From Denitrovibrio acetiphilus DSM 12809 (lineage in GTDB: Bacteria > Chrysiogenota > Deferribacteres > Deferribacterales > Geovibrionaceae), in contig NC_013943.1 in NCBI RefSeq assembly GCF_000025725.1, positions 2,914,001-2,978,000 on the forward strand: DNA of 64,000 nucleotides, written 5' to 3'. Numbering within the stretch: position 1 is the first letter of the stretch; the number at the start of each line of letters is the position of its first letter. The notes below the pieces were generated by a model. That model was not told the DNA's origin, made no database searches, and worked only from the letters and a program-made list of their open reading frames with translations. Position numbers and translations under genes: made by a program. Below are positions 60,851-64,000 of this stretch, one piece after another.

Positions 60851-61435
60851 TCAGGCAAGAGAACCTTTTGTTGACGGGATCTGGTCTGATTCGATTTTAA
60901 CCGCTGTTTTTATGGCACGTGCAACACACTTAAAAATACCCTCTATGATGTGGTGTGTATTCCTGCCGTACCGCTTTATGATGTGCAGATTGATGCCTGC
61001 ACGATCAGCAAAAGCTTTGAAAAATTCTTCAACAAGCTCAGTGTCAAAGTCTCCGACTTTTTCAGCAGGAATAGGCGCATCAAAATTAAGATATGTTCTG
61101 CCTGAAAAGTCCACAGCACATTCAATGAGTGTCTCGTCCATAGGCAGAAGGAAAAATCCGTATCTGGCTATTCCACGTTTGTCCCCGAGAGCCTTTACAA
61201 AAGCTTCCCCCAGGACAATACCTATATCCTCTGCTGTGTGGTGAGCGTCGATATGAGTATCTCCGTTCGCATTAACAGTAAGGTCAAATGAACCATGGCG
61301 TGAAAAAAGCTCCAGCATGTGGTTCAGAAACCCCACTCCCGTTTCAACGGAGTATTTCCCTTTGCCATCGACATTCAGAGTAATGCTGACGTCTGTTTCG
61401 GTCGTTTTACGCTCAATTGTTGCTTTACGCTCCAC
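60851..61435 (-). CDS. hisB: Imidazoleglycerol-phosphate dehydratase
   Basis: A 194-residue Mn-dependent dehydratase in histidine synthesis. The paired metal-binding motifs DTHIDAHHTAEDIGIVLGEA and RNTHHIIEGIFKCVARAIK are complete. It is the monofunctional form without the phosphatase domain of E. coli HisB. The start chosen is GTG 61435, with GAGG about eight bases upstream, giving ERKATIERKT, the usual HisB beginning. A GTG three codons earlier overlaps the ribosome-binding site. First of the his-pgpA-cinA run. Confidence 0.94.
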   Translation of the reverse strand: MERKATIERKTTETDVSITLNVDGKGKYSVETGVGFLNHMLELFSRHGSFDLTVNANGDTHIDAHHTAEDIGIVLGEAFVKALGDKRGIARYGFFLLPMDETLIECAVDFSGRTYLNFDAPIPAEKVGDFDTELVEEFFKAFADRAGINLHIIKRYGRNTHHIIEGIFKCVARAIKTAVKIESDQIPSTKGSLA

Positions 61436-61562
61436 AGCATGCACCTCGGACTTTTATTTTACTTTATTTTCTACTTATTTTATCCTAACATAGCAAGAAA
61501 TAAATATCTATTCCCTGTAACGGCTTACCATGCAGAAGTACGCCAGATACACCGGAGCTGTG

Positions 61563-62456
61563 ATGAGATACCACAAAAGTCTTCAGAAGCACTATGACCT
61601 TTCAGAGAAAGACATCGAAAACCTTCTTTATATCCAGCCGAATATGGAGAAATACAGACAGGAGTTTCTGGATGACTATTTAGATGCGGCGAAAAGCAAG
61701 TTTCATCTTACCGGTGAACAGATTGCAGCTTTGGAAGCGAACAGTGACAAGATGGAAAAATGGTATAACTGCCTTTTTCAGGGGTGCACAGCGAATCCTT
61801 ACTATAACTTCCTCTATAAGCAGGGCGCAGGGCTGTTTAAATATAACTTTGATCCTGATTTTATACCTGCGATGATAAGCTTCGCTAGGCTCTGGATGCA
61901 TGAAAAAGTTTTCCAGACTATAGATGACGACTACAGGCGCAAAGGCATTCTCCTTTCACTGCATAAGCTTCTTGATATCAACAGCGAGATTATGCTGGGA
62001 GCTTATTACGACAAAACAGTAAGCAAATACAGCTCTGTTTTCAGCTGGCGAAAGACGATTGTGGACTTTTCCGAACGTTTTTCACTGGTCATGCACTCCA
62101 TACTCGTACTTGTCCTCATGGGGCTTACGATTATGTCAGTCTATATTTTTGCACAGGATGTAATACATCTGCTGTCCGGACATGCCGAAACCATGCTTAT
62201 AACTGCTCTGGGGTCGCTGCTTATCATATGGGTGCTGGTGGAACTGCTCCATACAGAAGTGCAGATAATCGGCGGCGGTAAATTCAAAACCTCGGTCTTT
62301 ATAAGTGTTGCTCTTATTGCTTTTATCAGAGACCTGCTTATAATCACCCTGAAGCACGAAAAGGGGAACATGTTTCAGCACGGATTCATACTGACTTCTA
62401 TACTTGTACTCGGGCTGATATTCTGGCTCATTTCACACACGGAAGGGAAAGATTAG
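61563..62456 (+). CDS. Protoglobin-like sensor fused to PsiE-type membrane domain
   Basis: A 297-residue protein in two parts. Residues 1-170 are helical and follow a globin-coupled-sensor/protoglobin pattern: LSEKDIENLLYIQPNMEKY, then FARLWMHEKVFQ with His113 as a candidate proximal haem ligand, then HKLLDINSEIMLGAYY. Four membrane helices follow (about 175-197, 210-229, 243-263, 272-291) with VELLHTEVQIIGGGKF and ALIAFIRDLLIITL, as in PsiE. GGAG five bases before ATG 61563 decides the start over an ATG 11 codons upstream. The haem link is inferred. It diverges from hisB. Confidence 0.72.
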   Translation: MRYHKSLQKHYDLSEKDIENLLYIQPNMEKYRQEFLDDYLDAAKSKFHLTGEQIAALEANSDKMEKWYNCLFQGCTANPYYNFLYKQGAGLFKYNFDPDFIPAMISFARLWMHEKVFQTIDDDYRRKGILLSLHKLLDINSEIMLGAYYDKTVSKYSSVFSWRKTIVDFSERFSLVMHSILVLVLMGLTIMSVYIFAQDVIHLLSGHAETMLITALGSLLIIWVLVELLHTEVQIIGGGKFKTSVFISVALIAFIRDLLIITLKHEKGNMFQHGFILTSILVLGLIFWLISHTEGKD

Positions 62457-62537: not shown

Positions 62538-64000
62538 ATGTTAAAAAATGTCGCAAGAAAGATCTTCGGTTCATATGCAGACAGGTATACCAAAAAGCTG
62601 CTGCCGATGGTTCAGGAAATAAACTCTCTGGAAGAAAATATAAAGAAACTGTCTAACGAAGAGCTGAAAGCAAAAACGGATGAATTCCGTAAAGCTCTTG
62701 AAAACGGGAAGACAGAAGATGATATACTGACGGAGGCTTTTGCGGTTGCAAGAGAATCTTCTGTCCGCACCATGGGCATGAGACATTACGATGTTCAGAT
62801 GATGGGTGCATATGCACTGCACAAAGGCAAAATCGCAGAGATGAAAACCGGTGAGGGTAAAACTCTGGTGGCGACACTTGCAATGTACCTGAACGGCATC
62901 AGCGGAAAGGGCGCGCATCTCGTAACAGTAAACGACTACCTCGCAAGGCGGGATGCACAGTGGATGGCTCCTGTTTATCTCTTTCTCGGTCTTACAGTGG
63001 GGATCATCCAGCACATGGCATCATTCCGTGTGGAATGGGACAACGAAGAGGAACTAACCACAAAGATTGTCGAGTGCGACAGAGACGAAGCCTATGCCGC
63101 CGACATAACTTACGGTACAAACAACGAATTTGGCTTTGACTATCTACGTGACAATATGAAATCACCGAATGAACCCCTTGCACAGCGTCCGCTTCACTAT
63201 GCAATCGTAGATGAAGTCGACTCCATACTCATCGATGAAGCAAGAACACCTCTTATCATTTCCGGTCCTACAGAGAGCGGCACAGATCATTATTACGAAG
63301 TAAACAGTATTGTGAAAGACCTCGAACCACACAAACACTACAAACTGGACGAAAAGAACAAATCCGCACAGCTTATAGACGAAGGTATCAACGCAATCGA
63401 AGCAGCGATGAAAATTGATAACCTTTTTGATATCAAGTACGTTGATATGCTCCATCACTTTAACAACTCTATAAAAGCACACGCTCTTTATAAAAAGGAC
63501 GTGGATTATGTTGTAAAAGACGGAGAAGTTATTATTGTTGACGAATTCACCGGACGCCTCCAGCCGGGAAGGCGCTACGCAGACGGCATGCACCAGGCTC
63601 TTGAGGCAAAAGAGGGTGTTAAGATCGAAAGCGAAAACCAGACCCTCGCCTCCATCACCTTTCAGAACTATTTCCGTATGTATGAAAAGCTCTCCGGTAT
63701 GACTGGTACCGCACTTACAGAAGCACACGAATTTCTTTCTATATATAACCTCGAAGTTGCCGTTATCCCCACACACATGAAAATGATCAGAAAGGATAAT
63801 CCCGACGTCATCTTCCGCACTGTCACAGAAAAGCTGAACGCAATTGCCGACGAGATTGAAGAGATGCACAAAGAGGGGAGACCGGTTCTTGTGGGTACCA
63901 GCTCCATAGAAAAAACAGAGATAATAAGCTCCCTGCTGAATAAAAGAAAAATCAAACATGAAGTTCTCAACGCCAAAAATCACGAGCGTGAGGCAGAGAT
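62538..64000 (+). CDS. secA: Preprotein translocase ATPase SecA (5' part)
   Basis: The frame from ATG 62538 (GGAG upstream) stays open to the window edge, giving 487 residues of SecA, the motor that drives secretion through SecYEG. The N-terminus [20 protein letters not shown] is typical. Walker A is [13 protein letters not shown] (102-114). [49 protein letters not shown] (Walker B) and the preprotein cross-linking region up to [22 protein letters not shown] follow. The 3' part lies outside the window. Confidence 0.97.

Follow-up and report, generated by a model that had tools for sequence, protein, structure and literature searches.

Globin-coupled sensors (GCS) such as HemAT, AfGcHK and the GCS diguanylate cyclases have an N-terminal globin that retains its haem ligand. 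Through the last helix of this globin the signal reaches a C-terminal output domain, which is of the chemotaxis, kinase or cyclase type. Papers on another member of this group, GsGCS, reportedly mention a membrane domain. The globin of GsGCS (PDB 2W31, residues 1-162) has His66 (position E11) and His93 (position F8) as haem ligands; His66 is given as a ligand in PMC4476040, which cites a 2009 structure paper whose title names both histidines.

Haem is not required of a globin sensor. Bacillus RsbR (PMC4976288, PMC4476040) and MabR (PMC11617747) are non-haem globin sensors, and a globin domain of B. anthracis was crystallised with a bound fatty acid (PMC4976288, PMC4476040). RsbR and the sporulation-inhibitor domains are sensors (PMC4976288) that kept the globin fold after the haem ligand was lost. 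They are soluble, either STAS-coupled or stand-alone, and have neither PsiE nor membrane helices; their loss of the ligand is independent of the one described below.

Although PsiE was named and assigned to a family decades ago, we know of no activity for it. The proteins are stand-alone and four-helix, without a globin, E. coli PsiE (b4030) having only 136 residues. In E. coli, psiE is controlled by PhoB and cAMP-CRP (PMC4415409). A distant PsiE of the same Pfam family, ORF14, lies within the oxidative-stress module of a transmissible stress-tolerance island, and this module is required for chlorine resistance (PMC8290217). Both settings are compatible with a stress or redox role of PsiE and prove none.

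Results

The gene analysed here lies in a 64,000-nucleotide stretch of DNA (the window) from the complete, 3.22 Mb genome of Denitrovibrio acetiphilus DSM 12809, and encodes a globin followed by a PsiE domain:

61554..61557, + strand, GGAG ribosome-binding motif, five bases 5′ of the ATG (direct reading of the sequence)
61563..62456, + strand, coding sequence of the globin-PsiE fusion, 297 amino acids (domain scan, homologue starts)
61578..62015, + strand, Protoglobin/GCS globin domain, residues 6-151 (Pfam PF11563; 2W31 by profile and fold)
62088..62441, + strand, PsiE membrane domain, residues 176-293 (Pfam PF06146; hydropathy; model helices)

There is a second in-frame ATG at 61530, 33 bases upstream. 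We take 61563 as the start because the N-termini of the homologues coincide with this methionine, not with the ATG at 61530, and because the GGAG motif precedes it. The open reading frame 61563-62456 is thus a genuine gene with a sound start. Full-length homologues without stops are found in 39 of 46 genomes of the order, the exceptions being five genomes of one family (f4) and two others. Given the absence of stops in these homologues, and a dN far below dS wherever the two could be measured, a decayed pseudogene is ruled out.

On the single sequence the globin call is weak: the Pfam Protoglobin match to residues 6-151 has an E-value of 4e-5 and scores 24 bits, just below the cut-off of 25. 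It becomes firm because the relatives match both Protoglobin (19 of 22 family members, best E-value 5e-22) and 2W31, which the family profile finds at an E-value of 1.6e-21, with AfGcHK and HemAT weaker. We also obtained a template-free AlphaFold2 model from an alignment of 28 sequences. Its globin domain is predicted with a pLDDT of mostly 82-93, and its closest PDB fold is again 2W31 (TM-score 0.82 on the target), the top match by both sequence and fold. AfGcHK, HemAT and protoglobins follow, and the non-haem RsbR and sporulation-inhibitor domains (2BNL, 3PMC, 3PMD) are weaker matches. The family profile and fold matches rule out a chance likeness of the helical pattern. Residues 1-150 are, therefore, a confirmed protoglobin/GCS domain, as the first-pass annotation of this DNA had suspected when it suggested comparing the fold with protoglobin and HemAT.

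The same annotation had described the remainder as a four-helix, PsiE-type membrane unit, and this was borne out. The Pfam PsiE match to residues 176-293 (E-value 5e-20) scores 72 bits, well over the curated cut-off of 23.9, and hydropathy and the models agree on four hydrophobic helices at about residues 175-196, 211-229, 244-262 and 274-292. Two residues of this half are invariant across the PsiE domains aligned, including E. coli PsiE:

62241..62243, + strand, Glu227
62328..62330, + strand, Arg256

Phe246 is likewise common to every aligned PsiE domain, that of E. coli included. A profile search found no solved homologue of the PsiE domain, and a weak model of this domain by itself (pLDDT 71, pTM 0.46) gave no PDB fold match better than an E-value of 3.8. 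In the full-length model, globin helix H (residues 123-156) is followed nearly unbroken by a helix of residues 158-203, which contains membrane helix 1; the domain arrangement in this model is uncertain (pTM 0.52). The fusion gene is the one PsiE gene in its genome. A Protoglobin search at an E-value of 0.001 found no globin there, though the same search missed the fusion itself.

The globin-PsiE family is widespread, little studied and not unique to Denitrovibrio. Outside the order, fusion homologues occur in Nitrospirota, and among about 330 more distant genomes the fusion is present in 19, which belong to 14 other families (in one of the 19 a contig end truncates it). No plasmid-borne relatives were found. 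Several related genomes also hold separate versions of one or both domains. Seleniivibrio-type genomes have a second protoglobin domain, not joined to PsiE, within a 401-residue frame (G011:C6:173961-174419; G007:C13:87479-87934). Two genomes of another family of the same phylum (G048 and G049, family f10) encode a protoglobin domain in a separate gene, with a frame of 426-525 residues, and, at another site in the genome, a PsiE of about 200 residues that stands alone. In a deep branch of the fusion family (G060, G208 and G347; loci L037, L123 and L114), two members carry long inserts in the region of globin helices G and H.

The family is especially common in the order holding genome G358, which we take to be Geobacterales from a globin identity of 56% to 2W31. 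Matches to the 2W31 globin were found in 104 of 141 genomes of this order; nearly all are close and sit in reading frames at least about 300 residues long. All 15 frames that we read continue into a PsiE domain, and one member that was scanned gave E-values of 6.7e-30 for Protoglobin and 7e-22 for PsiE. Some frames with a 2W31-like globin (in G500, G505, G501, G481 and G484) are longer, at 470-1012 residues, and may reflect upstream open reading or further fusions. The genomes searched did not include G. sulfurreducens, and the best match to 2W31 was 68% identical; the relatives of 2W31 in its order, up to that identity, lie within globin-PsiE proteins of about 300 residues. Moreover, the 2W31 fragment ends at residue 162, just ahead of where PsiE would start. 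By sequence comparison, GsGCS is itself most likely a globin-PsiE protein. The first-pass annotation had called the architecture one of a kind it did not recognise as described. Indeed, we found no paper in the open-access literature that links a globin to PsiE; the nearest relatives of a solved structure, however, share the architecture.

We then compared the positions that could hold haem:

61752..61754, + strand, Met64, E11 column, a distal His in 2W31 and in Nitrospirota members (alignments)
61833..61835, + strand, Leu91, F8 column, the proximal His in other members and in 2W31 (alignments)
61899..61901, + strand, His113, helix G, lineage-specific and not F8 (alignments and model)
61962..61964, + strand, His134, helix H, same distribution in Deferribacterota as His113 (alignments)

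In the alignment to 2W31, His93 (F8) corresponds to Leu91 and His66 (E11) to Met64, so neither a proximal histidine at F8 nor the bis-His ligation of GsGCS is present. There is no histidine between residues 48 and 113, and therefore no shift of the alignment restores a histidine to helix F. Helices E (residues 61-73) and F (residues 78-93) are free of histidine and of any other conserved ligand. Nitrospirota members (L061, L059, L076 and others) keep both the E11 and the F8 histidine, and are good candidates for haem biochemistry.

The F8 histidine is present in all 26 aligned members from outside Deferribacterota and in all 15 Geobacterales members read, in contrast to 8 of the 30 Deferribacterota rows of the tree; Calditerrivibrio and other close relatives of Denitrovibrio are among those that retain it. 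In a maximum-likelihood tree all Deferribacterota sequences fall into a single clade (support 100/100), within which the F8 state changes at least five times, two of the changes being forced by strongly supported branches. The direction of change is loss, because the outgroups carry the histidine. On this tree the F8 histidine was lost within Deferribacterota at least twice, and probably about five times.

Despite this loss, the globin domain is still under purifying selection: in the His-less lineages its dN is 0.06-0.31 and its dS, where computable, 1.4 to >3, although dS is saturated in many pairs and the ratios are rough. The protein thus combines a globin fold that lacks the F8 histidine with retention of the domain under selection, as do the non-haem globin sensors. 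We claim no membership of the RsbR family, as the protein has no STAS domain.

Repeated loss of the haem ligand from a domain that is nevertheless retained would also fit a globin that serves as a structural or dimerisation module, with PsiE acting independently of any ligand sensing by the globin. The lack of a partner gene (see below) points the same way, as does the rate of evolution, which is 1.3 to 2.8 times faster in the globin than in PsiE in all but one pair. The faster rate, however, is seen in His-less and His-bearing pairs alike and is thus no mark of relaxation after haem loss. In addition, most of the order shows strong conservation of the WxHEK, SxHK and DIN motifs of helices G and H. 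We regard a purely structural role as rather unlikely.

The first-pass annotation had proposed a haem sensor with His113 as the candidate proximal ligand, and had suggested examining the conservation of this residue. His113 is present, and 26 of the 36 Deferribacterota sequences share it. The Mucispirillum lineage has Gln or Met instead, and most haem-competent members outside Deferribacterota have Ile, Met, Leu or other residues. His113 lies in helix G, 22 residues past the F8 column, and this position, together with the alignment, rules it out as the proximal ligand. Nor is it a stand-in ligand, because it is also found in relatives that retain the F8 histidine. His113 and His134 may, we infer, have a structural role or make up a metal site. 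Unusual haem ligation by Met64, Tyr94, His113 or His134 is conceivable from the sequence, and haem held by such a non-canonical ligand, or at a dimer interface, would leave the protein a gas or redox sensor. The conservation of His113 in Deferribacterota, the position of Met64 in the column of the 2W31 distal histidine and the retention of the F8 histidine in close relatives would agree with this. Met64, however, is variable even within the genus (Leu in the sister species), the E and F helices offer no conserved ligand, and His113 is far from F8 and co-occurs with the F8 histidine. Haem binding of this kind seems to us quite improbable.

Finally, we looked at the surroundings of the gene:

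60851..61444, - strand, presumed hisB, which opens the divergent his cluster; adjacent upstream but outside the system
62538..63998, + strand, presumed start of secA, directly downstream and running off the window; most relatives within the order share this arrangement

These two genes, and the pur and dap neighbours in relatives, we name from their sequences. The divergent his cluster is found upstream of the fusion gene in most of the order. In Nitrospirota most fusion genes are flanked by purH and purD, separated from them by short gaps, and at two deep-branch loci (L037 and L114, G060 being one of the genomes) the gene lies between dapA and dapB; in Mucispirillum and elsewhere it stands beside unrelated or other housekeeping genes. 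A link of the fusion to protein export, as a membrane regulator translated with secA in the manner of secM before E. coli secA, is highly improbable: the adjacent secA, which in several relatives overlaps the fusion gene by four bases, gives way to purD, dapB or unrelated genes in these other lineages, so that the common feature is housekeeping surroundings and not secA. No signalling partner common to the lineages was found in the neighbourhoods of the loci examined, which suggests that the protein is self-contained.

Discussion

The above results point to a cytoplasmic GCS globin that is coupled to PsiE and has become a non-haem sensor after loss of the F8 histidine, a reading that we consider fairly probable. 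The uncertain domain arrangement in the model (pTM 0.52) and the housekeeping neighbours without an output partner count against it, as do the alternatives of unusual haem ligation and of a globin with a structural role. The ancestor would have been a membrane-anchored haem GCS of the GsGCS type, answering O2, NO, CO or the redox state. A change in the ligand or redox state of its haem would shift the dimer interface of helices G and H and, via helix H, move the PsiE helices. These mechanics would be kept in the Denitrovibrio fusion, with the haem ligand lost.

Since the F8 histidine was lost, the protein probably senses something other than gas. With Leu91 in place of the proximal histidine the globin is most likely non-haem and would respond to another signal. 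Candidates for this signal are an apolar molecule occupying the empty pocket, for instance a fatty acid, and contact with a metal or a protein. The signal probably travels from helix H into membrane helix 1 as a rearrangement of the dimer, changing the state of PsiE.

Through the fusion, the uncharacterised PsiE family is linked to an ancient gas or redox sensor. The globin fusion is present in at least 14 further families and stays a single gene in very different operons, which suggests that PsiE can be driven by, or can report to, a sensor amenable to purification and assay. On this view the crystallised Geobacter globin would be the sensory part of a membrane protein that is itself uncharacterised, and comparison of sister lineages that have or lack the haem ligand offers a natural control. 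A bolder proposal, which we hold to be distinctly unlikely, is that PsiE is a ligand-gated membrane device (a channel, carrier or redox gate), placed in the widespread fusion under the control of a cytoplasmic haem globin and re-wired in Deferribacterota to a non-gas ligand by repeated haem loss. If true, this would mean a membrane activity gated by a globin and would give PsiE its first molecular role.
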